Shown piece by piece: positions 9,337 to 41,626 of a stretch of DNA of 64,000 nucleotides. The stretch lies in assembly GCF_029255285.1 (NCBI RefSeq), contig NZ_JAPUVI010000107.1, positions 24,768-88,767 of the forward strand, read 5' to 3'. Numbering within the stretch: position 1 is the stretch's first letter; the number at the start of each line of letters is the position of its first letter. The stretch is from Accumulibacter sp. GTDB lineage: Bacteria; Pseudomonadota; Gammaproteobacteria; Burkholderiales; Rhodocyclaceae. The notes under the pieces were generated by a model. It saw only the letters and a list, made by a program, of their open reading frames with translations. It was not told the origin of the DNA and did no database searches. The translations under genes were made by a program, and so were the position numbers.

Positions 9337-10986
9337 CTAGCCGGCACGACGGACCACACCCCGGGAAGCTGCCCCGGCCCTCGTTCTTCTTAGCAGCAGA
9401 AAAGCAGCGAGCAGCCAAGCGTGCGTCACAAATCCATTGGTGAAACCCAAAGGCGTGTTGATAGTGCTACACAGCACACCAATGGTGACGAAAGGCCCAA
9501 CGATCAGCCAGTCTTGGCGGCGTTCCCGAACGACACGCTTATAGCAGAAACCCGCGAAGGCTCCCCACACAACGCACAGGAGCAAGGCGAAGTAGCCAAA
9601 GTCCACGTACAGGGAACCCCAGGCGGAAGGGAAAAAGCCGTAGGTGCCGAGTGTGAGCAACGAGTCGAATCCGTCCGACACTCCTTGCGGGTCAAGTCGC
9701 CGCATCACGGCCGACATGAGGTCCACGCCGTAGACTCCCAGTTGCAGCGGTCCGTCGTACGATGTAAACAGGTAATTGCACATGACGACACCTTGCACGA
9801 CATACCAACTAAAAATAAATACCAGGTACGCCAGCTCATCGCCAAGAAAGGAAAAAATCAGGTCGGAGGATGGGCCGCGAAAACCGACACCCCAGAGACT
9901 TTCGGCGACAGAAAACATTTCTGCCGCACCGCCGACAACTGCGGCACGGGTACTGAAGACGGCGACGAAGTAATAGAGCAGAGCCGCCAGAAAAGCCGGC
10001 CAAAGCAGCTTGACTACCCACCGGGTACTACTTGGCGACGACCCGCGGGGAAACGCTCCACCACGATACATCGTGGAGAGGACGATCGATCGGCGTGCTG
10101 GCGGTGACGCCAGAGGACGGACGGTCGGTAAATGGCGGGAGGGTAGAACGCCGTCAAGGATAGCCTGGATCCGGGCAAACCACCCTTGCTCGGCAAGCGC
10201 TACGCCCGTACGCCTCCGATCTTCGGATGAACTGCCTGCCGCCGTCGACGCTCCCTGAGCCTCCAGGCCAGCGAGAACTTCGGCCTCATCGGCGGTGGAG
10301 TTAGGCGAGGAGACGCTCGACGGACTCGCCACCGCCCGGCGGTTCGCAAGGGCTCGATCCGGCGTAACGCGATGATGGCGGGAAGACTGGGGATCAGCGA
10401 GCTTGGAGCGTTCCTGCCATGCCAGTCCCGCGACCAGGACCGCATAGAAAATCGGCATACGGCCGCCCATGCTGGCGGTGGCCAACACGACAGGCAGGAA
10501 TCCGAAAAGTCCGACTCGCCAGAGAGCTATCCGTTCAGAGTACACAATATGGGTTGCCATGAACACGTAGCTCGCGGGATAGAGCAGGAACGCGATCTGA
10601 AACCAGGCCGAACTGAGGGATGATTCTCCCTTGAGCAGGGCATCAGCGCTTTCGGACCGCAGGTCGGAGGCTGCCGCCAGGTCGAAGGGATTCTTGTCTT
10701 GTAGATCCATCAAGAGAAAAAGCGTGGCGGCGGCCGCTGCCCACATGAGACATCGTTCGGCCCGACAGGCGTCGATGCGACTATTCGGCACGCCACTACC
10801 CGCTGTTCCAGTTCGGGAGGCGGGCACCAGGGCAGTGCCCAGCAAGTAAGCCCCCATGAAGGAGCCTAGGACCAAGAATCCGTGCTCGGTGAGTGGCCGA
10901 TCGAGCAGTTCGAACGGCAGAATGAAGAAGGCGGCCGCGCAGAGCCCCCAAACAGCGACCATGGTCAGCGCCGGGTGCCGCTTCAT
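9337..10986 (-). CDS. wzy: Wzy-like oligosaccharide repeat-unit polymerase
   Basis: 549 residues with about 10-12 hydrophobic helices and little sequence conservation, as usual for Wzy. The late segment 'GTYGFFPSAWGSLYVDFGY' followed by hydrophobic helices is typical of the O-antigen/EPS polymerase family. It would join lipid-linked repeat units in the periplasm. Residues 191-324 form a long non-membrane insert rich in Ser, Ala, Arg and Pro, unusual for this family. A flippase and capsule transferase lie just upstream in the same strand, which supports a Wzx/Wzy-type pathway. An O-antigen ligase role cannot be excluded. Confidence 0.75.
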   Translation of the reverse strand: MKRHPALTMVAVWGLCAAAFFILPFELLDRPLTEHGFLVLGSFMGAYLLGTALVPASRTGTAGSGVPNSRIDACRAERCLMWAAAAATLFLLMDLQDKNPFDLAAASDLRSESADALLKGESSLSSAWFQIAFLLYPASYVFMATHIVYSERIALWRVGLFGFLPVVLATASMGGRMPIFYAVLVAGLAWQERSKLADPQSSRHHRVTPDRALANRRAVASPSSVSSPNSTADEAEVLAGLEAQGASTAAGSSSEDRRRTGVALAEQGWFARIQAILDGVLPSRHLPTVRPLASPPARRSIVLSTMYRGGAFPRGSSPSSTRWVVKLLWPAFLAALLYYFVAVFSTRAAVVGGAAEMFSVAESLWGVGFRGPSSDLIFSFLGDELAYLVFIFSWYVVQGVVMCNYLFTSYDGPLQLGVYGVDLMSAVMRRLDPQGVSDGFDSLLTLGTYGFFPSAWGSLYVDFGYFALLLCVVWGAFAGFCYKRVVRERRQDWLIVGPFVTIGVLCSTINTPLGFTNGFVTHAWLLAAFLLLRRTRAGAASRGVVRRAG

Positions 10987-31368: not shown

Positions 31369-32448
31369 TCATTCACTTCTCTGGCGCAGCATCCGGCTGT
31401 GCTGATGTACAGCGTCTACCAGCGCAGCGACGTTGTCGGGTGGCGTGAACTGCGAGATGCCGTGCCCGAGATTGAAGACGTGTCCGGTGGTCTGCCCCGG
31501 ACCAAAACTGTCGAGGATTTTCCGGGCCTCGGCGGCGACCGTGTCGGGCGAAGCGAACAGCACGGCCGGATCGAGGTTACCCTGCAACGCGACGCGATGA
31601 CCGACTCGCCGGCGCGCTTCACCGATATCGATCGTCCAGTCGACTCCGATCGCGTCGCAACCGCTGTCAGCGATCGCCTCCAGCCACAGACTTCCACCCT
31701 TGGTGAACACGATCGAGGGAACCCGCTCGCCTCCTTTCTCGCGGATCAGCCGGTCGAGGATGCGCTGCATGTAATACAACGAAAACTCCCGGTACGCCAC
31801 CGACGACAGCGAGCCGCCCCAGGAATCGAAAATCATCACCGCCTGCGCGCCGGATTCGATCTGCGCGTTCAGATAAGCGGCAACCGCGTCGGCGGTAACC
31901 GACAGAATGCGATGCAGGAGGTCCGGACGCTCGTAGAGCATCCCCTTGATGCCGCGATAGTCGCTGCTCGCCGCCCCTTCGACCATGTAGCAGGCGAGCG
32001 TGTAGGGGCTGCCCGAGAAGCCGATCAGCGGCACGGAATTGTGCAGCGCACGCCTGATTTCGGCCACCGCGTCCATGACGTAACGCAGGTGATCCCAGGG
32101 GTCTGGCGCGGTCAGATCGCGAATGGCCCATTCCTCGCGCAGCGGACGTTCGAAACGAGGACCCTCGCCGTCGGTGAAATACAGGCCGAGACCCATCGCG
32201 TCGGGAACGGTCAGAATATCGGAGAACAGAATCGCCGCATCGAGATCGTAACGGGCCAGCGGCTGCAGCGTGACTTCACAGGCCAGCGCCGGGTTCTTGC
32301 ACAGTTGAAGAAAACTGCCGGCGCGTTTACGCGTCTCGCAGTACTCGGGCAGATAGCGGCCAGCCTGGCGCATCAGCCACACCGGTGTGTGCTCGTTGGG
32401 CTCCCTGAGCAGGGCGCGCAGAAAACTGTCGTTGCAGGGTCGGGTCAC
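31369..32448 (-). CDS. hemE: Uroporphyrinogen III decarboxylase
   Basis: 359 residues, full length. '[15 protein letters not shown]' is the N-terminal signature with the substrate-binding arginine, '[16 protein letters not shown]' includes the catalytic Asp, and '[16 protein letters not shown]' is the second family signature. It decarboxylates uroporphyrinogen III to coproporphyrinogen III in heme synthesis. It is followed on the minus strand by priA after the 337-bp spacer. Confidence 0.97.
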
Positions 32449-32617
32449 GTTGCACTCCAGCGGCGAGAGGAATACGCCGGAAAGTCCCGATTATCCGCTT
32501 TTCCCCGTCGCTTGCGCGCGCCGGCCGAGCTGGGGAAGCCAAGTACCCTGGCACGGGCGAAGGTTCTTGCGTAGTTGCCACACCAGAACGCTGCCCGCAT
32601 CGAGGAGCCGCGCCGCC

Positions 32618-33094
32618 TTACTCGAGGACGCTCAAAGGCAGCGGCGCCATCTCCTTGTAGAGCAGAGGAAGCGGAGGTTTGCACGCAACGGTGACGATGC
32701 GCGTCCCCGGCGGATAGATCAGGTGGTAGGTCAAAAACATGTGCGCCTCTTCGTGGCCGAGAAGCAGCGCGCGTAGCGCCACATAGCCCGGCTGGCCGAG
32801 AACGCTGACTTCCCGGTAAGTGTGCCGATTGAGTTGGATAGACCGTTGGCCAAGGACGAGCTCCGGCGTCTGCGGGCCGAGCAGCTCGTGCACCAGGAAA
32901 CGCCGCACTTCGGGCAGGAGGATCACGCCGACACAATCCTCGCCCACCAGCCATTCGACCGCCCTTCCCTCGCCGCCTGGGTCTGGGAGATGATCGCCGA
33001 AAGCCTGGCACCAGCGCGGGAAGTAGGCCGCGTAGCGGCGGACGATCCGGTCCACGGGCTGAGCTCGGCGTCGGCTAGCGATCTCGCAAGGCAC
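32618..33094 (-). CDS. Small unknown protein, weak resemblance to chorismate lyase (UbiC/DUF98 fold)
   Basis: 158 residues from a GTG at 33094. 'YREVSVLGQPGYVALRALLLG' loosely resembles the 'REV-L--(G)-P---A-S' strand of chorismate pyruvate-lyases, and 'MAPLPLSVLE' near the end is similar to their tail. The catalytic residues of UbiC cannot be aligned by eye, so the assignment is only a suggestion. It overlaps the CBS-pair gene by 20 bp and is probably the last gene of the DUF1538/P-II/CBS group. Confidence 0.55.
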   Translation of the reverse strand: MPCEIASRRRAQPVDRIVRRYAAYFPRWCQAFGDHLPDPGGEGRAVEWLVGEDCVGVILLPEVRRFLVHELLGPQTPELVLGQRSIQLNRHTYREVSVLGQPGYVALRALLLGHEEAHMFLTYHLIYPPGTRIVTVACKPPLPLLYKEMAPLPLSVLE

Positions 33095-33470
33095 GCTCGA
33101 TCAGGCTGCCGACGACATCGGTATCCGAAACGAAACCCTGCAAGTCGTTGTTGTCGATGACCAGCACATGTTTGACCGAATACTGGATCATCAGTCGCGC
33201 CAGGTAGCGGATGTCGAGGTGCTGGGAAACCTGCAGCACCGGCTTCTGGGCAATGTCGTATACATTGAGCAGGTCGATGTCGCCGTCCTCGGCAATCACT
33301 GACCGCGCGATGTCGCGATAGGCGATCACACCGTAGGCGTCGCCCGAGTGGCGCTTCTCGACGACCAGCGAGCGGACGCCATGCTCTTTCATCATCACCA
33401 GCACCTCGCGCACGGTCGCCAGCGGATCGATGGTGATGACATCCTTCTTCATGATTCCGGCAACCAGCAT
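33075..33470 (-). CDS. CBS-domain pair protein
   Basis: 131 residues consisting of two CBS domains and nothing else. CBS1: 'IMKKDVITIDPLATVREVLVMMKEHGVRSLVV' with 'GVIAYRDIA'. CBS2: 'VLQVSQHLDIRYLARLMIQYSVKHVLVID' with 'GFVSDTDVV'. Stand-alone pairs bind adenine nucleotides (AMP, ATP, SAM, c-di-AMP) and regulate partners. It lies 61 bp after a P-II-like gene, another adenine-nucleotide sensor, which in turn overlaps a DUF1538 membrane protein. This suggests joint energy-state control of transport. Confidence 0.9.
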   Translation of the reverse strand: MLVAGIMKKDVITIDPLATVREVLVMMKEHGVRSLVVEKRHSGDAYGVIAYRDIARSVIAEDGDIDLLNVYDIAQKPVLQVSQHLDIRYLARLMIQYSVKHVLVIDNNDLQGFVSDTDVVGSLIERALRDR

Positions 33471-33531
33471 CGCAGGAACTCCTTCCGTAAATGATTTTTG
33501 TCAGACCCTTGGCGGCGCACCGGCAGGCGGT

Positions 33532-33879
33532 TCACAGATCCTCTTCGACCTCGCGCCGAAAAGCCTGCAACTGCGCCCGACTGATGCCGACGACACTGCC
33601 CAGGGACAGCGAAAAAGCGAGACCGCCTCCCGGTTCGTCAAGCTTCATTTCGACCTTGACCGAACGCAGAATGCGCATCGCCATCTGTTTCTCGACGACG
33701 CACAGCAACACCGATTCCTTGCGCTCGAGACCGAGGCCGAGAAAGGTCTTCCGTTCGTTGTGGCGCAGACCTTTGCCCTTGAGAATCGTCAGGCCCGTCG
33801 CTCCGGCCTGTTTGAGGATACCGACCGCGCGGTTCTCCTCCTCTTCCGGAACGATCAGCACCACAGCAGAAAATCTCAT
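33532..33879 (-). CDS. P-II-like signalling protein
   Basis: 115 residues from the ATG at 33879. The beta-alpha-beta P-II pattern is visible: 'FSAVVLIVPEEEENRAVGILKQAGATGLTILKGKGL', then 'VLLCVVEKQMAMRILRSV'. The long uridylylation T-loop and Tyr51 of GlnB are absent, so it is not a classical nitrogen regulator. P-II-like proteins of this size next to transport proteins (SbtB with SbtA; CPII in Thiomonas cbb loci) regulate bicarbonate uptake by binding adenine nucleotides. It overlaps the DUF1538 gene by 4 bp (ATGA). A longer frame to 34089 is a shadow. Confidence 0.82.
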   Translation of the reverse strand: MRFSAVVLIVPEEEENRAVGILKQAGATGLTILKGKGLRHNERKTFLGLGLERKESVLLCVVEKQMAMRILRSVKVEMKLDEPGGGLAFSLSLGSVVGISRAQLQAFRREVEEDL

Positions 33880-35381
33880 CGCGTTCTCTCCTTGACGGGA
33901 AGCCTCGACAAGCGCCACGAGGCGAGTATCCCATAAGACATGACGATAATCATCGGTAGCAGCGAAGCGAAGGCGATCAGGCCGAAGCCGTCGATCAGCG
34001 GGTCGCGGCCTGGCGTCCGCTCGGCCAATCCGACACCAAGCGCCGTCACCAGCGGCACGGTCACCGTGGAAGTGGTCACGCCGCCGCAATCATAGGCAAT
34101 CGGAACGATGAAGCGGGGCGCCACGCGCGTCATCGCCAGCACCAGCAGGTAACCGGGGATCAGCCAGTAAGCGATGTTGGTGCCGTCGATGATGCGCAGG
34201 CAGCCGACGACGATACCGATGCCGACGCCGACCGAGACCAGCGAACGCAGCCAGAGGCCCTTCAACTGCCCGAGGCTGACTTCGTCGGCCTTGATCGACA
34301 GAGCGATCAGCGCCGGCTCGGCCATCGTCGTCGCAAAACCGATCAGAAAGCCGTACAGATACACCGCCCACATGGCGACACCGTCGCCCATCAGCCCGCG
34401 GGTCATATCGTCGCCGAGCGGAAAGAGCCCGACCTGCAGCCCTTCGTCGAAGAGAAAGAGTCCGACCGCGACCAGTACCATGCCCACGGCCAGTCCCTTC
34501 GGATCGGCCAGCGGTCGGCGCAGGACGACGAAACTCGAGAACAGCACGACAGCGATGATCGGCAGCAGGTTCCTGACCATGACCAGAAAGTCGACCAGCA
34601 TTGCCCACGCCACGTACTGGTGCTGATCGTCGCTCGGCAGCATCGAAACCGCGGTACCGGCCGCCGCCGGGACAAAGAACAGAATGCCGTAGACCTGGAT
34701 GACGATCATCGGCGCCAGTGCGCCAAAAGCGATCAGGCCGAAGCCGTCGAGCATCGGGTTGCGGCCGCGGATACTGGTCGCCAGACCGACGCCCAAGGCC
34801 GTCAACAACGGCGCCGTGACGGTCGAAGCAACGACGCCGCCCGAGTCGAAGGCCAAGCCGACCAGTTGCGGCGGAGCGAACATGGTCAATACAATGACGA
34901 TCAGGTAGGCAGGGATCAGGTAGTTGCCGATCGCGTGCCCGAGGACGATGCGCCAGACGCCGACCATCACGGCCAGACCGACTCCCAGCGCGGCAACCAG
35001 GCGCAGCGTCAGGGCGCCCATGCTGCCGCCGGAAACGGCTTCGGCCTTGTAGGCGACGGCCATCAGCGCCGGCTCGGCGGCTACCGAGGCAAAGCTGACG
35101 CAGAAGGCGAAGAGCATCAGCCAAAAGAAAGAGCCGCGACGGGCGAAATCGAAGGCCATCGTCTCGCCGGCCGGGAAAATCGCGGCATCGAGCCCCTTGA
35201 CGAACAACGCCAGGCCGAGAAGGACGGCGGCAAAACCGCCGACCAGCGCCAAGCTGCTGTCCGGCAGGCGCTGGATGAAAAACACTTGAAAGACCAGGAC
35301 GACGACGAGCGTCGGCGCCAGATCGCGTGCCGCTTCGTGGAGAAGTTCGCGGATGACGCGAACCAGCGAACCCATGCCCAT
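33876..35381 (-). CDS. DUF1538 double-repeat membrane protein (UmpAB-like)
   Basis: 501 residues with about 12-14 hydrophobic helices and an obvious internal duplication. The half ending 'DGFGLIAFGALAPMIVIQ' is repeated about 240 residues later as 'DGFGLIAFASLLPMIIVM'. Each copy is preceded by 'GGVVASTVTAPLLTALGVG' or 'GGVTTSTVTVPLVTALGVG'. This is two fused DUF1538 units; separate DUF1538 pairs (UmpA/UmpB) have been reported to act as cation/proton antiporters in Halomonas. The P-II-like gene overlaps its end, and cbbO ends 277 bp upstream on the same strand, so bicarbonate or cation transport serving CO2 fixation is a reasonable guess, not a demonstrated role. Confidence 0.82.
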   Translation of the reverse strand: MGMGSLVRVIRELLHEAARDLAPTLVVVLVFQVFFIQRLPDSSLALVGGFAAVLLGLALFVKGLDAAIFPAGETMAFDFARRGSFFWLMLFAFCVSFASVAAEPALMAVAYKAEAVSGGSMGALTLRLVAALGVGLAVMVGVWRIVLGHAIGNYLIPAYLIVIVLTMFAPPQLVGLAFDSGGVVASTVTAPLLTALGVGLATSIRGRNPMLDGFGLIAFGALAPMIVIQVYGILFFVPAAAGTAVSMLPSDDQHQYVAWAMLVDFLVMVRNLLPIIAVVLFSSFVVLRRPLADPKGLAVGMVLVAVGLFLFDEGLQVGLFPLGDDMTRGLMGDGVAMWAVYLYGFLIGFATTMAEPALIALSIKADEVSLGQLKGLWLRSLVSVGVGIGIVVGCLRIIDGTNIAYWLIPGYLLVLAMTRVAPRFIVPIAYDCGGVTTSTVTVPLVTALGVGLAERTPGRDPLIDGFGLIAFASLLPMIIVMSYGILASWRLSRLPVKERTR

Positions 35382-35658
35382 GTCGCCCCCCCTAATACAC
35401 GTTGATCGGCCTCACGGTCCGGCCAGGCAAGACGGTAATAGACGGGAAAATGGGAATCATCGGCTCGGTAAGCAGTCGTCGGATCGGCTGTCAAATCTTG
35501 ACACTCGCTCGAACGTTGCCACAAAAGGACTGTCGCATCAAGATATTGTTGGCGTGAGCGTGCCACGAGCAAGGAGTCTGCCCAGTCCCGTGCCGTGCCG
35601 CGCCCTACCGAACACGCCCGGCCCCTCGTGTACGAGCCGAACAAACAACGACTCCCGC

Positions 35659-37959
35659 CTACCGGGTCAGCGCCATGAACAATTCCGGCAACCGCTGGGG
35701 AAGCCTCCCGACGTTGTCGATGACCGAATAGCGCCGACCGAAGATGTCGCTCACGTAGTCGTCAGCCCGGCGATCGAGGCTGATGCAATAGGTGAAAATT
35801 CCCTGCCGGTCCACCTCGCCGACCGCCTGACGAGCGTCCTCGATCAGCAGGCGCTCGTCCTGTACGTCGACATCCGACGGTTGACCGTCGGTCAGGATCA
35901 GCAACAGCCGCTTCTCGGCCGGCTGCGCGGCAAGATAATGCGCCGCGTGACGCATCGCGCCGCCGATACGCGTCGAATAGCCGGCCCGCATCGCCGCCAG
36001 CCGGCGCTTGACCGCATCACCCCAGGGCTCGCTGAAACCCTTCAGGTGCAGGTAGCGCAGGTCATGCCGAGTGTCCGAGTGGAAACCGGCGATCGCCAGA
36101 GGATCGCCCAGTTGCTCTATCGACCAGGCGAGCAGAGAGACCGCCTCCTGACTCAGCTCGAGCACCGTCTGCTCGCCGCCGGCGACACGGACCTTGTCAC
36201 CCAGCGACTGCGACAGATCGAGCAGCAGCAGCACGGCAAGGTTGCGCCCGTTCCGGCGATGGCTCAGGTTGATCCGCGGGTCGGGGCTGCGACCACTCTT
36301 GAGGTCGATCAGTGAGCGCAGCGCGATGTCGAGATCGAGCTCGCTACCATCTTCCTGGTAACGTATGCGCACTTTGTCCTGTGGCCGCAGCAGATCGAGC
36401 AGACGTTTCAGCCGCCCGGCCAAGACGGCGTGCTTGTCGAGCAGCCGGTCGATCAGTCCGGCATCGCCCGACGGATGCAGCGATTCGTAAAGGCTCACCC
36501 AATCCGGCCGATACGTCCCGCTCAGATAGTCCCACTCGGGATAGTGGCGCGGTGGCAAGTAATCGACCTCGGCGACGACGGGGGCCGGACGCGGCTCGTC
36601 GAACGACTCTTCGTCGTCGCTCAGCTCATGGAATCGCCACAGATGGCGATTGTCGTCGCGGTAGCCGATTTCCGTGTCGGCGAAGACGACGTCAGCCAGT
36701 TGATCGCTTTGCCGGCGCGTGCGTGCGACATAAGCCAGCGCCAGCGTCGCAATGTGCTCGCTACTCGACTCGCCAGTCGCCATGGTTTGTCTGAAGCGAT
36801 CGACGAAGTCGCGCAAGGTGGCGTCGAGATAGCCGTGTCGCTCGTCGAGCAGCGCCCGCGACAACATCGCCAGACGATGGCGCAGACAGGAGTGTGTTTC
36901 CGGGTTGCAGGCGCCTTCGACGGGCTTGGGATGCAGCGCGAGAAATACACGGTGCAGCCCCGGATACTGCCGCAGGATCAGCGTCTCGATCCGGCAATCT
37001 TCGAAAAATTCGATCGCCATGCGCTGTTGCGGGCTGAAGTTGTCGGCGAACATCGGCCGGCTCCAGCGGCGGTGCCCGGCAATGTGGGCCAATATCGCAC
37101 GGTAGCGGTCGATGCCGGAAACCCCCGCGACATCGTCGAGCACGTCCGGCAGGCGAATCCCGAAGGCATCATAGTACGGGAAGACGGGCGGCCGCTCGGC
37201 AGAGACCGCAAGACGGGGCGGGGCCGCATAGGGGACGAGCGTGCTGCCGTCAGCCCATAGGCCGCGCAAGTAGAGGTCGAGCAGTCGTTCGTGGTCGACC
37301 AGCAGGGTGCCGTGCCGCTCGCGCTGGAAGACCGCTCGACTGTCGGCCGATTGCAGGCTGAAATAGGCACGCTGACCTTCCGGGTGTCGGGAGTAGTGGC
37401 GAATGCCATACTCCACCCAGTTGCGCAAGCCAGCGATCGTCAGGCCGTCGAGCAGGGTCGGCGCGTGCGTGAAGAATTCCGGCAAGGCCGGGCTGGCGAA
37501 AGTCTTGTGGATACCGTGGATGGAGCCGGAAGTACGCTCCATCATTTCGCACGCCAGGTCGAGGTAATGCTGCATCGGCTGGCGCGCCGCCAGCCGACGA
37601 GCGACCGCGGCGAGCGTCTGCAGAAAAGGCGTGATGGCCTTGCCATTCGGCGACTTCGCCATCGCCTGCAGGGTTCCGGCGATCGCCGGCAGCGCGTCTT
37701 CGCCAAGGATTCTGGCCACCGTCGGCCACTCTTCGAGAAATGCCAGCAGCGGCTCGACACCGCGCCCCATGCGGCCGAGAAAGCGTGCGCAATCGACGTA
37801 GGCGTCGACGCCGTCCGGCGACAAAGCGGCCAAGGCGTCGAGCAGACAGTTCTCGAAGACTACGGCAAGCTGCGGAAAGCGGCAGTCGAGTTGCGCGCGG
37901 TAGCCCGCCAGACGCCGTGGCCAGTCGTCCGTGATACCGCGTGTCAACGTCGCGGACAC
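35659..37959 (-). CDS. cbbO: RuBisCO activase subunit CbbO (VWA domain)
   Basis: 766 residues from a GTG at 37959, overlapping the cbbQ stop by one base (TAGTG). The C-terminal quarter is a von Willebrand A domain with the MIDAS motif 'LLLLDLSQS' and a later 'LLILTDGQPSD'. The long N-terminal part matches CbbO/NorD. With CbbQ it forms an ATP-driven complex that removes inhibitory sugar phosphates from RuBisCO; the VWA MIDAS contacts the enzyme. A NorD role is excluded by the absence of norCB and by adjacent cbbM. Confidence 0.92.
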   Translation of the reverse strand: MSATLTRGITDDWPRRLAGYRAQLDCRFPQLAVVFENCLLDALAALSPDGVDAYVDCARFLGRMGRGVEPLLAFLEEWPTVARILGEDALPAIAGTLQAMAKSPNGKAITPFLQTLAAVARRLAARQPMQHYLDLACEMMERTSGSIHGIHKTFASPALPEFFTHAPTLLDGLTIAGLRNWVEYGIRHYSRHPEGQRAYFSLQSADSRAVFQRERHGTLLVDHERLLDLYLRGLWADGSTLVPYAAPPRLAVSAERPPVFPYYDAFGIRLPDVLDDVAGVSGIDRYRAILAHIAGHRRWSRPMFADNFSPQQRMAIEFFEDCRIETLILRQYPGLHRVFLALHPKPVEGACNPETHSCLRHRLAMLSRALLDERHGYLDATLRDFVDRFRQTMATGESSSEHIATLALAYVARTRRQSDQLADVVFADTEIGYRDDNRHLWRFHELSDDEESFDEPRPAPVVAEVDYLPPRHYPEWDYLSGTYRPDWVSLYESLHPSGDAGLIDRLLDKHAVLAGRLKRLLDLLRPQDKVRIRYQEDGSELDLDIALRSLIDLKSGRSPDPRINLSHRRNGRNLAVLLLLDLSQSLGDKVRVAGGEQTVLELSQEAVSLLAWSIEQLGDPLAIAGFHSDTRHDLRYLHLKGFSEPWGDAVKRRLAAMRAGYSTRIGGAMRHAAHYLAAQPAEKRLLLILTDGQPSDVDVQDERLLIEDARQAVGEVDRQGIFTYCISLDRRADDYVSDIFGRRYSVIDNVGRLPQRLPELFMALTR

Positions 37960-38771
37960 TACACCGTGCCGGCGAAAACGGCGTCGATCGCGTGGTCCAA
38001 CGTATCGCGAATATCGCGATCGTCGGTGATCGGCCGCACGAGGGCCATCCGGCAGGCATCGCCGGGCGCCACGCCGCCCTTGATCAGGGTAGCGGCGTAG
38101 ACCAGGAGCCGTGTCGAGATCCCTTCGTCCAGGCCATGCCCCTTCAAACGACGCGCCGCTGCGCCGACGCTCACCAGTTGAACCGCCAACGCCGCGTCGA
38201 CGCCGCTTTCGCGGGCGATGATCGCCGTTTCCAGCTCGGCGCCGGGATAGTCGAACTCGAAAGCCGTGAAACGCTGCTTGGTGGACTGTTTCAGATCCTT
38301 CATGAGACTTTGGTAGCCCGGGTTGTACGAGATGACCAGCTGGAAGTCGGCGTGAGCGTGGATCAACTCGCCCTTCTTGTCGAGCGGCAAGGTGCGCCGG
38401 TGATCGGTCAAGGGGTGGATGACCACCGTCGTGTCCTGGCGCGCTTCGACAATCTCGTCGAGATAGCAGATGGCGCCGATGCGCGCCGCGGTGGTCAGCG
38501 GGCCATCGAGCCAGCGCGTGCCGTTGGCGTCAAGCAGGTAGCGCCCGACAAGGTCCGACGCCGTCATGTCTTCGTTGCAGGCGACGGTGATCAGCGGCTT
38601 GCCGAGCTTCCACGCCATGTATTCGACAAAGCGCGACTTGCCGCAACCGGTGGGCCCCTTGACCATCACCGGCAGACGCGCCGCATAGGCCGCTTCGTAG
38701 AGCGCGACTTCGTTGCGCTGCGGCTGATAGAAGGGTTGCTCGACAACCCTGAACTGCTCTTTGTCGGTCAT
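37959..38771 (-). CDS. cbbQ: RuBisCO activase AAA+ subunit CbbQ
   Basis: 270 residues, a MoxR-type AAA+ ATPase. Walker A GPTGCGKS spans 39-46, the Walker B is 'GAICYLDEIVEA', and 'VISYNPGYQS' is the sensor-1/pore region. Hexameric CbbQ with CbbO remodels inhibited form II RuBisCO. It lies 90 bp downstream of cbbM and directly precedes cbbO, the usual cbbMQO order. Confidence 0.94.
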   Translation of the reverse strand: MTDKEQFRVVEQPFYQPQRNEVALYEAAYAARLPVMVKGPTGCGKSRFVEYMAWKLGKPLITVACNEDMTASDLVGRYLLDANGTRWLDGPLTTAARIGAICYLDEIVEARQDTTVVIHPLTDHRRTLPLDKKGELIHAHADFQLVISYNPGYQSLMKDLKQSTKQRFTAFEFDYPGAELETAIIARESGVDAALAVQLVSVGAAARRLKGHGLDEGISTRLLVYAATLIKGGVAPGDACRMALVRPITDDRDIRDTLDHAIDAVFAGTV

Positions 38772-38861
38772 GGCGGCTCTCAGGTAAGTCAGCGCTGCGC
38801 TTCGAGGCTAGGTCGGGCGGCGCAATCGGCAAGGTCGAACCGGGAGGCCACCGACGGGCGT

Positions 38862-40241
38862 TCAGCGATGGCGGCCAAGCCGCTCGCGCCAGCCCGGATA
38901 GAGCTTGTCGGCGTCGCCCGGGAAGGACTCGAAAGCGCGCGCGAATTCCTTGTGTTCCCTCGCCCAGGCGATCGGATCGGCACCAGCCTTCCAGCATTCG
39001 TAAGCCTGGCGCAACGAAATGGCGCCGGCGGCCGGGCTGTCGATATGCCCATAGGAACCACCACCGGACGTGTTGATGACATTCCCGTGGCCGAGGTTGG
39101 CGAAAAAACCCGGCAGACGAAGCGCGTTCATACCACCCGAAATGATCGGCGTCGTCGGCTTCATGCCGTACCACTTCTGGTGATAGGCCGGACCCTGGTA
39201 CTCGTCGCGCTCGATGACGTAAGCGATCGCCCGGTCGTCGGCGCTGCCTTCCATTTTCCCGTAGCCCATGGTGCCGACATGAATTCCCGAGGCGCCCTGC
39301 AAACGGGCCATCTTGGCCAGCACATAGGCGTCGTAGCCGCGTTTCGAACTGGGCGAGGTGACGGCGCCGTGACCGGCGCGATGGTAGTGCAGGTACTGGT
39401 TGGGGTACTGCCGCCGGGCCGTGGTCACCATCCCGGGACCGCCTACGTAGCCATCGACGAGAAAGGCGACCTTGTCGGCGTCGGGCCCGAACGTCTCCAA
39501 GATGTAGTCGGCTCGTGCGCACATCTCGTAGTGGTCGTCCGCCGTGATGTTGGCCGAGAAGAGCTTCGCCTGACCCGTTTCGTCCTGCGCCCGCTTCATC
39601 GCGTCATACACCATGGGCATCACCTTCTTCATCGGCGCGAAGACCTGGTTGCCCTGCGGCTCGTCGTTCTTGATGAAGTCACCGCCAAGCCAGAACTGGT
39701 AAGCGGCCTTGGCAAAGGGTTCCGGCCGCAGACCGAGTTTGGGCTTGATGATCGTGCCGGCAATATAGCCACCATCCTTGATCGGGCGGCCAAGGATGCG
39801 CCAGAGGTCGGAAATGTCCTTCGCCGGGCCATCGAACAACTGGATCGCACGTTCGGGCATGTAGAAGTCGTAGATCTTCGCGTGTTCGATATCGCCCATT
39901 CCCTGGTTGTTGCCGATGACCAGCGTCAGAAACGAAACGATCATCATCCGCCCGTCGGTGATGTTGCGGTCGAACAGATCGAGTGGGTAAGCGATGCGCA
40001 TTTCCTCGGTCGCTTCGTCGATGTGATAGACGAGCGCATCGACGCCACGCGTGAAGTCGTCGGTAGTGCACACTTCGACGTTGGTACCGGTCGACGACTC
40101 GGCAGCAAAGTGTGCGGCCGCCGGCAGGTAGTCATATCCCGCCTTGGGCTTCATCTTGTAGGCTACCAGGATGTGCTTGCCGCCCCGAATCAGATCCTCT
40201 TCATCCAGGCTCAGGTCGGCATAACGATTTGATTGGTCCAT
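38862..40241 (-). CDS. cbbM: Ribulose-bisphosphate carboxylase, form II
   Basis: 459 residues, the exact size range of dimeric form II RuBisCO. The ATG at 40241 follows a GGAGA ribosome-binding site. Catalytic residues match R. rubrum numbering: K166 in 'GTIIKPKLG', carbamylated K191 with D193 and E194 in '[14 protein letters not shown]', H287 and H291 in 'YHRAGHG', and loop-6 K329 in 'GYGKMEG'. It fixes CO2 onto RuBP and would support autotrophy, mixotrophy or redox balancing. No small subunit and no cbbR are present nearby. Confidence 0.98.
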
Positions 40242-40642
40242 ACGTATCTCCGTATCGTATAAAGGGAAGAGCCTGTGCGCCACGCGCGGCACCAGGTGAT
40301 CCGACGGCGGCGAGCGACCCATTCCGGCGGAGCGACGAATTTTTCGTAAACGCAAGTCTAAGCGGCACAAATGATTATTAAAAGTTAAAGTTGATGCGTT
40401 TTATGTTTAATTTTAAATTAACAATCATCGTTTTCGGCAGAGGCGGCGATTACTTGTCCGCCCAGGTATTACCGGCGGCCTGAGTGATGGCGCTTGCCAC
40501 GCCGGCACTTGGTGGACGAGGCGGCGCGAGGCAAAGCCAAGGAGCTTGCCGACCACTGCGCGAGTTGTGCCTGGACAAGACCGCGCGATGAGCGCGCCGG
40601 GGGCTTCTGCTATACTCGTCGGATGACGCTCATTACCCGCCC
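40242..40642. other. 401-bp divergent cbbM/kdsD intergenic region
   Basis: A strongly A/T-rich tract (about 40365-40430) interrupts GC-rich surroundings. It contains a perfect 15-bp dyad at 40407-40421. Nearer kdsD, TATACT at 40611-40616 is a possible -10 for kdsD without a clear -35. No open frame in the region is convincing. Confidence 0.5.
40407..40421. promoter_or_regulatory. A/T-rich dyad, candidate CbbR (LysR-type) operator
   Basis: TTAATTT-T-AAATTAA is a perfect 7-1-7 inverted repeat containing the LysR-type T-N11-A spacing (T408/A420). It lies 166 bp upstream of the cbbM start codon, a common distance for CbbR sites. No regulator gene is adjacent, so the assignment is by position and symmetry only. 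Confidence 0.4.
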
Positions 40643-41626
40643 ATGAGTCATATTCAGCCCTCAGCGAAAGCGCTCGATCTGGCACGCCAGGTGTTGCGCA
40701 TCGAGGCCGAAGCGGTGCTGGCTTTGGTCGACCGCATCAACGACGCTTTCCTGCGTGCCCTGGAACTCATCCTCAATTGCCATGGCCGCGTGATCGTCAG
40801 CGGCATGGGCAAATCCGGCCATGTCGGGCGCAAGATCGCGTCGACCCTGGCCAGCACGGGAACACCGGCCTTTTTCGTTCATCCTGCCGAAGCCAGCCAT
40901 GGCGACCTCGGAATGATCACGCGCGACGACGTCCTGATCGCGCTTTCCAACTCCGGAGAAAGTACGGAATTGTTGGCCATCGTGCCGAGCATCAAACGCC
41001 AGGGAGCCCGGTTGATCAGCCTGACCGGCAATCGCCAGTCGTCGCTGGCACGCGAGTCCGACGTCCATCTCGACGCCGCGGTGGCGCAGGAGGCCTGCCC
41101 GCTCAATCTGGCGCCTACCGCCAGCACGACAGCGGTTCTGGCCTTGGGCGACGCACTGGCGGTCGCCCTGCTCGATGCGCGAGGTTTCGGGCCGGAGGAT
41201 TTTGCCCGCTCGCACCCCGGCGGTTTGCTCGGCCGCCGTCTCCTGACGCGCGTGCGTGATGTCATGCGAATGGGCAACGCCGTTCCCGCGGTCAGTCCGG
41301 CGACCAGCGTTCCGGACGCCATTCTCGAGATTTCGCGTGGCGGCATTGGTATGACGGCCGTCGTGAATCCCGACCGCCAGGTCGTCGGAGTGGTCACCGA
41401 TGGCGATCTGCGACGCGCCTTCGCCAGGAATACGGATCCGCGAATGTTGACGGTGGCCGACATCATGGGCCGTGGGCCGCGCTCGATCGGACCAGACCGG
41501 CTGGCCGTCGAAGCCGTCGAGATGATGGAACAACACAAGATCAACCAGCTTCCGGTCGTCGATGCGGAAGGTGTGCTGATCGGTGCGCTCAACATGCACG
41601 ACCTGTTCAACGCCAAGGTTATCTGA
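40643..41626 (+). CDS. kdsD: Arabinose-5-phosphate isomerase
   Basis: 327 residues: an N-terminal SIS domain ('GRVIVSGMGKSGHVGRKIASTLAS', 'GDLGMITRDDVLIALSNSGES') and a C-terminal CBS pair ('VRDVMRMGNAVPAV', 'GVVTDGDLRRAF', 'QLPVVDAEGVLIGALNMHDL'). It converts ribulose-5-phosphate to arabinose-5-phosphate for Kdo synthesis. The TGATG-type junction with kdsC shows tight coupling, and the following genes are lptC and lptA, the usual order in proteobacteria. Confidence 0.95.
   Translation: MSHIQPSAKALDLARQVLRIEAEAVLALVDRINDAFLRALELILNCHGRVIVSGMGKSGHVGRKIASTLASTGTPAFFVHPAEASHGDLGMITRDDVLIALSNSGESTELLAIVPSIKRQGARLISLTGNRQSSLARESDVHLDAAVAQEACPLNLAPTASTTAVLALGDALAVALLDARGFGPEDFARSHPGGLLGRRLLTRVRDVMRMGNAVPAVSPATSVPDAILEISRGGIGMTAVVNPDRQVVGVVTDGDLRRAFARNTDPRMLTVADIMGRGPRSIGPDRLAVEAVEMMEQHKINQLPVVDAEGVLIGALNMHDLFNAKVI

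Follow-up and report, generated by a model that had tools for sequence, protein, structure and literature searches.

Genes of the locus

The window analysed here is a 64,000-nucleotide stretch of DNA. Its genome, 4.19 Mb long and in 113 contigs, is near that of Candidatus Accumulibacter (Pseudomonadota). The window contains a gene for a double-DUF1538 membrane protein followed by genes for a short PII-like protein and a CBS-pair protein. DUF1538 and PII-like genes, often with a CBS gene, are a conserved, self-contained unit in at least Pseudomonadota, Campylobacterota and Bacillota. We consider it probable that this unit exchanges monovalent cations for protons and that its own PII-like protein gates the exchange, with the CBS protein as a sensor. 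The module and its companion gene are laid out in the window as follows:

33876-35381, minus strand: fused double-DUF1538 membrane protein, 501 amino acids, UmpA-UmpB-like, a predicted monovalent-cation/proton antiporter (PF07556 twice)
33532-33879, minus strand: short PII-like protein, 115 amino acids, the proposed transporter gate (PF00543; beside DUF1538 or fused to it in three phyla)
33075-33470, minus strand: CBS-pair protein, 131 amino acids, a proposed second adenine-nucleotide sensor (PF00571 twice)
32618-33055, minus strand: small protein, 145 amino acids, of no known family, a module companion in Accumulibacter-like genomes (from homologue comparison)

An earlier note, made from the sequence alone, described these genes as lying on one strand behind cbbM, cbbQ and cbbO, and both coordinates and family profile matches bear this out: all seven genes are on the minus strand, with a 277-bp gap between cbbO and the DUF1538 gene. 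The internal duplication that it saw in the DUF1538 protein also stands (two PF07556 domains, the halves sharing 100 identities over 215 aligned positions), as does the missing T-loop tyrosine of the PII-like protein, which has no tyrosine anywhere. Of the gene overlaps, the ATGA common to the DUF1538 stop codon and the PII-like start codon is real, whereas the overlap between the CBS gene and the small gene is not. Homologues indicate that the small gene starts at a GTG at 33055, not at 33094, so the gene is clear of the CBS gene with 19 bases between them.

The DUF1538 protein is 83-90% identical to its counterparts at 22 Accumulibacter-like loci (by label 20 Accumulibacter, one Dechloromonas and one Pseudomonadota bacterium) and 49-53% identical to those at three Campylobacterota loci, so these genes are not chance open frames.

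Conservation of the unit

Gene order is the most direct evidence that DUF1538 and the PII-like protein belong together. DUF1538, PII-like and CBS genes keep a constant order across the 25 related loci just described, of which L023 is broken by masked bases and L026 and L027 start within DUF1538. In a wider Pseudomonadota set, which takes roughly one locus per genus from the matches listed (46 loci with 49 DUF1538 clusters), 45 of the clusters have a PII-like gene on the same strand at most 400 bases downstream, and 31 have both PII-like and CBS genes behind DUF1538. One of the four exceptional clusters (L093) has its PII-like gene upstream. When the open frames around the 46 loci are clustered, DUF1538 appears in 46, the PII-like family in 43 and the CBS family in 31; with antisense frames set aside, the next commonest family is found in 12 loci, at varying distances, and lesser families in 5 or 6. 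Six of the 46 loci have, just upstream, what we take from its translation to be a histidyl-tRNA synthetase-like gene.

The same neighbours recur in other samples. The best 30 loci of 126 UmpA-positive genomes (among 369) include a PII-like gene in 29 cases and a CBS gene in 28. DUF1538 occurs in 21 of 150 Campylobacterota genomes, with a PII-like gene or domain at all 21 loci (downstream in 20) and a CBS gene within about 1.5 kb at 12; at L154, the order is PII-like, CBS, DUF1538. Flanks for the related, Campylobacterota and second-sample loci span 0-10 kb, some ended by the contig, and absences of CBS or cbb genes refer to the fetched stretch only.

Nine plasmid records contain DUF1538. Six were examined, five of them annotated (three from Clostridia), and in all five a gene annotated as P-II family nitrogen regulator comes next after DUF1538, overlapping it in four and following five bases behind in Methylocystis. 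In the Chelativorans plasmid, the first DUF1538 piece is just 273 bases. The clostridial plasmids encode a double-length PII protein of 222-224 amino acids (L224 4810-5478, L227 4856-5530, L228 4696-5364), in which Pfam finds two P-II stretches in one case and a single stretch in the others. Six records from a phage collection also match DUF1538.

Co-occurrence can also be counted without regard to position. We searched 398 Pseudomonadota genomes with A4, a profile built from 23 PII-like sequences, counting per genome and ignoring relatedness, so that the accompanying Fisher values are not to be taken as probabilities. At E<=1e-11, 120 genomes have both families, five only PII-like, six only DUF1538 and 267 neither; at E<=1e-5, the corresponding numbers are 121, 36, 5 and 236, and the extra, weak matches are perhaps other PII proteins. 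In some genomes, additional PII-like copies lie away from the DUF1538 contig.

Two variants of the system deserve mention. Some Accumulibacter and relatives have a second DUF1538 system (L077-L080, L082, L083, L085, L086, L089), in which two PII-like genes come after that of a longer DUF1538 protein, without a CBS gene directly behind. Extra PII-like copies in family f80 (G201:C80, G141:C108, G145:C10, G197:C93, G173:C100, G278:C133) each have one in-frame stop (TAG or TGA).

Fusion of DUF1538 and PII

At 7 of the 21 Campylobacterota loci, in seven different genomes, DUF1538, DUF1538 and PII form a single open frame of 641-668 amino acids. All seven fusions pass the Pfam cut-offs of both families, with a C-terminal P-II domain scoring 30.4-39.0 bits against a cut-off of 25; one of them (L147) reaches the contig edge. 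An eighth candidate is L090 (the same place as L052), where a partial DUF1538 match passes into a PII match. Read from their sequences, the fusions imply that PII and transporter would be physically associated in those Campylobacterota.

Could the PII-like and CBS proteins instead be transcriptional or metabolic regulators that are co-expressed with DUF1538 and never touch it? Contact cannot be shown by gene order alone, and in three genomes (G184, G193, G215) the PII-like and DUF1538 genes are on different contigs. However, the seven single-chain fusions, together with start-stop overlaps in different phyla, indicate contact and a fixed stoichiometry, and we therefore regard a purely co-expressed regulator as unlikely.

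The predicted DUF1538 transporter

The window protein is a clear member of its family: its two PF07556 domains total 400.6 bits against a cut-off of 22.6. NCBIfam profiles make the first half UmpA-like and the second half UmpB-like. Two acidic residues in each half never vary in a comparison that took sequences scoring 200 or more from locus L077 onward: E103 and D179 across 74 first halves, E355 and D431 across 83 second halves. The 33 fused proteins keep all four, which are candidate cation/proton sites.

The assayed relative is UmpAB, a split DUF1538 pair of Halomonas zhaodongensis, which the available text of its paper describes as a heterodimeric Na+(Li+,K+)/H+ antiporter (PMC5484666). 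UmpAB and the window protein belong to the same Pfam family, with the window halves resembling UmpA and UmpB respectively; the differences are that the window protein is one chain where UmpAB is two, and that it scores under the NCBIfam equivalog cut-offs. That same text contains no mention of P-II, nitrogen regulatory or CBS. UmpAB homologues are reported from saltwater cable bacteria (PMC10030654, in part) and DUF1538 is included in a table of growth-pH predictors (PMC13255231, in part), and a role in ion and pH balance fits both.

The PII-like and CBS proteins

Membership of the PII superfamily is supported by a PF00543 score of 26.3 bits, just over the cut-off of 25, and by matches of profile A4 to PII chains in the PDB. 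The best of these is 9p1x chain H (a P-II family nitrogen regulatory protein of 105 residues), matched over nearly the full length at E=7e-6; its T-loop is similarly short. Several motifs have established roles in PII proteins: the B-loop, the T-loop tyrosine, the RTGE-type end and the site for 2-oxoglutarate and ATP. Having no tyrosine, the window protein cannot be placed with GlnB and GlnK by uridylylation; its T-loop is about five residues shorter than that of GlnB-3, and the family alignment has no C-terminal RTGE-type motif. By inspection of alignment A4, the B-loop G-x-G, T31 and G37 are mostly retained.

These features bear on a nitrogen-based explanation, in which the PII-like protein would act by nitrogen status like GlnK (via 2-oxoglutarate and uridylylation) and the transporter would move ammonium or another nitrogen-related ion. 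Public records do label such genes P-II family nitrogen regulator, and the family profile has its best PDB matches among PII proteins. Against this stand the missing tyrosine, the shortened T-loop and the absent RTGE-type motif; in addition, no nitrogen-assimilation gene was recognised by eye in 15 listed family clusters around the 46 loci, and the sole assayed homologue exchanges Na+, Li+ and K+ for protons, according to the available text (PMC5484666). We consider a nitrogen role distinctly improbable. Despite the label, nothing in this analysis ties the module's PII genes to nitrogen.

Nor does the protein look like an SbtB. Cysteines are found in the R-loop of SbtB, and the window protein has none near its C-terminus. 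That R-loop is a C-terminal redox element in the part of the SbtB literature available (PMC10991534). Chains named SbtB match profile A4 weakly and over part of its length only (positions 6 to 43/44, E 0.004-0.8). Neither full-length similarity nor a redox R-loop is seen.

The CBS-pair protein matches PF00571 twice. Adenine-nucleotide-sensing CBS repeats have the motif G-h-h-[S/T]-x-x-D, and the second repeat in the window (GFVSDTD) fits it. In 78 aligned sequences, with gaps excluded, the glycine is present in 58 of 58, serine or threonine in 45 of 52 and aspartate in 38 of 47. Its sequence thus makes this protein a proposed second adenine-nucleotide sensor.

The RuBisCO neighbourhood

Three genes precede the module in the window, as neighbours and not as members:

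38862-40241, minus strand: cbbM, form II RuBisCO (NCBIfam PRK13475/NF010002, 910 bits, cut-off 489)
37959-38771, minus strand: cbbQ, an AAA+ protein and RuBisCO activase partner (CbbQ_C, 112 bits)
35659-37959, minus strand: cbbO, a VWA protein (VWA domain; away from the module in relatives)

From this arrangement the earlier note drew a RuBisCO-linked carbon supply, i.e. a DUF1538 protein that carries bicarbonate or couples it to sodium, controlled by the PII-like and CBS proteins and serving form II RuBisCO. In its favour, DUF1538 shares a strand with cbbMQO and begins 277 bp after it, and there is the precedent of a bicarbonate transporter, SbtA, gated by the PII-like SbtB (PMC10710835, in its available text). 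The neighbourhood is not conserved, however. The genus sample of 28 genomes has DUF1538 in 26, RuBisCO in 27 and both in 25. Only 5 of these 25 have the two on one contig, and they are adjacent solely in the window's genome, the other distances being approximately 43 kb, 121 kb, 350 kb and 2.4 Mb; the remaining 20 have them on separate contigs, where distance is not measurable.

More distant comparisons agree. No cbb genes occur in the fetched flanks of the 25 related loci (at most 10 kb per side, several shorter, and almost nil upstream in L018, L026 and L027), in the fetched regions around the module in 10 relatives (several of whose genomes are shared with the 25-locus set) or, judged from the RuBisCO matches listed, in the stretches fetched around the 46 Pseudomonadota loci. 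A RuBisCO search of three module-bearing Campylobacterota genomes, whose completeness is not stated, was negative, and the module is also present in Clostridia. On the other side of the module, hemE-priA-ppx follows as in the window at just one compared locus (L005); the neighbours vary.

Genome-wide counts are at first sight more favourable to carbon supply. DUF1538 occurs in 126 of the 398 Pseudomonadota genomes and a RuBisCO-family match in 117, and the 60 with both exceed expectation (odds ratio 3.4), where the RuBisCO counts are upper bounds because PF00016 also matches RuBisCO-like proteins. However, 55 of the 60 fall in one family (f72). Outside it, a RuBisCO-family match is found in 5 of 58 DUF1538 genomes versus 55 of 268 genomes without DUF1538, the f72 genome total being a lower bound in that not every genome without matches is among those listed.

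The position of the module beside cbb genes in the window's genome therefore looks like an accident of gene order. The earlier note named a module occurring equally often away from RuBisCO genes as the outcome that would refute it, and this is what the survey gives: comparisons within the genus, at related loci and across the 398 genomes lead us to reject the RuBisCO link. The carbon-supply reading is likewise unsupported, and we rate it very improbable. What survives from the earlier note is its module with a PII-like regulator of a transporter, which neighbourhood, start-stop overlap, co-occurrence and fusion all support. As a separate observation, the Accumulibacter genome G010 has two equal-scoring RuBisCO large-subunit matches (C2:6200-7093 and C7:4965-5858).

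Companion gene and surrounding signals

The small gene is beside DUF1538 in all 21 genus genomes searched, as a single copy apart from one fragment in G023, and the two genus genomes that lack DUF1538, G005 and G007, lack it too. In G008 it lies close to a split-type DUF1538 system and is oppositely oriented, and searches of six other DUF1538-bearing genomes from the family and order did not find it. A second copy, 72% identical, occurs in the window's genome at L200 (G000:C105:184000-203900) 9906-10343, just upstream of genes that, from their translations, are presumably phoU-like and phoB/phoR-like; no full second copy is present in 21 other genus genomes.

The small protein fits no known family: no Pfam family rises above chance level in 17 members, and its confident AlphaFold model (predicted local distance difference test, pLDDT, 85.5) has no PDB match at E<=0.001. 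Kinship with chorismate lyase was considered and finds no support in the Pfam, PDB profile or fold searches.

In 32300-40800, a promoter scan gave no promoter-like sites, and the two terminator-like sites are each within a gene; Rfam and tRNA scans of the window gave no matches. Upstream of DUF1538 (35382-35658) there is a short GCCGATGA-like motif common to many of 11 aligned Accumulibacter relatives, a hint that the module may have its own promoter.

Proposed working of the module

We propose that the double-DUF1538 protein would exchange a monovalent cation (Na+, Li+ or K+) for protons, and that the short PII-like protein would dock on its cytoplasmic face. By binding adenine nucleotides, the PII-like protein would open or close the transporter as in GlnK-AmtB and SbtB-SbtA, and the CBS-pair protein would supply a second adenine-nucleotide input. 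In Accumulibacter, as elsewhere, the unit may thereby tie the energy state of the cell to its cation and pH balance. The evidence for this antiporter comprises gene order, overlap, co-occurrence, fusion and conserved acidic residues, all seen here, and the antiport activity of one homologue, taken from the literature.

Several points weigh against this proposal. The antiport function comes from one paper, available in part, and concerns a homologue of the window protein (PMC5484666). The window protein scores 423 bits for UmpA and 358 for UmpB, under the NCBIfam equivalog cut-offs of 490 and 500 (NF041627, NF041628), and none of the 369 genomes reaches the UmpA cut-off. Its structure model is weak (pLDDT 61, predicted template modelling score 0.54) and gives no PDB match at E<=0.001 with Foldseek. 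As for the PII-like protein, by inspection the other classical ligand residues, i.e. those of the 2-oxoglutarate and ATP site of GlnB/GlnK, are not retained, so its ligand is uncertain.

The association itself also has exceptions. Three Pseudomonadota loci (L119, L121, L123) have no PII-like gene nearby, although their genomes, the G184, G193 and G215 mentioned above, have a strong PII-like match on another contig; conversely, the five genomes counted as PII-like only have a strong match and no DUF1538. CBS is missing beside PII-like in 14 of 45 Pseudomonadota clusters, and none was seen beside the seven fusions, where 0 to about 1 kb behind was covered. The counts of PII-like neighbours in the 49 clusters, the 30 best loci and the Campylobacterota loci use a profile that was itself iterated over some of these loci (L001-L136). 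An outside check found that 22 of 23 chosen members match Pfam P-II at E<=0.001. One upstream PII-like sequence, at L087 (8785-9132), scores 17.1 and so falls short of the Pfam cut-off of 25.

Relation to known systems

PII-gated transporters are already a known kind, and the available text of a review of regulated bacterial transporters names AmtB, Amt1, UrtABCDE and SbtA as PII targets (PMC10710835). The same text describes the two closest parallels. In SbtB-SbtA, as proposed here, a small PII-like protein acts on a secondary transporter under adenine-nucleotide control, but DUF1538 has no detected relation to SbtA, its sole Pfam match being PF07556. In GlnK-AmtB, a PII gene is likewise linked to a transporter gene and its product directly blocks the transporter, but GlnK has a uridylylated T-loop tyrosine, which the window protein lacks. 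Part of another paper describes BB0017-type proteins, which join a YitT membrane domain and a C-terminal PII-like DUF2179 domain in one chain (PMC6516651); there the membrane domain is YitT, not DUF1538, and DUF2179 matches the window PII-like protein at merely E=0.034.

CPII is a small, carboxysome-associated PII-like protein reported from cbb loci. It differs from the present family in that none of 39 PDB matches of the family profile is named CPII and the cbb neighbourhood here is not conserved. We found no report of the DUF1538/PII-like pairing in the open literature (subscription papers and preprints were outside the search), and the fusion may already be listed in domain databases.

The review's available text restricts PII use to transporters that act as trimers (PMC10710835), and from this restriction together with the PII fusions, DUF1538 is predicted to be trimeric. 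This counts against the proposed antiporter in that the known PII-regulated transporters do act as trimers, while the DUF1538 trimer is a prediction. A broader possibility, which we hold only tentatively and judge somewhat short of even, is that DUF1538 is a further widespread class of PII-gated transporter, in which a dedicated PII-like trimer reads the adenylate pool, CBS is a second sensor, PII is fused in some Campylobacterota and the antiporter itself is trimeric as predicted.

Implications

PII proteins are textbook sensors of nitrogen and carbon. If the gated antiporter is real, a widespread PII-like family acting on a cation/proton antiporter would extend PII proteins to ion and pH homeostasis, and it would assign a role to many genes that at present go under the label P-II family nitrogen regulator. 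It would also make a simple prediction, namely that cation exchange is gated by the adenylate pool. Accumulibacter is a polyphosphate-accumulating organism in which ATP and cation fluxes swing strongly, and a cation gate that reads adenylates would be physiologically apt in such a cell.

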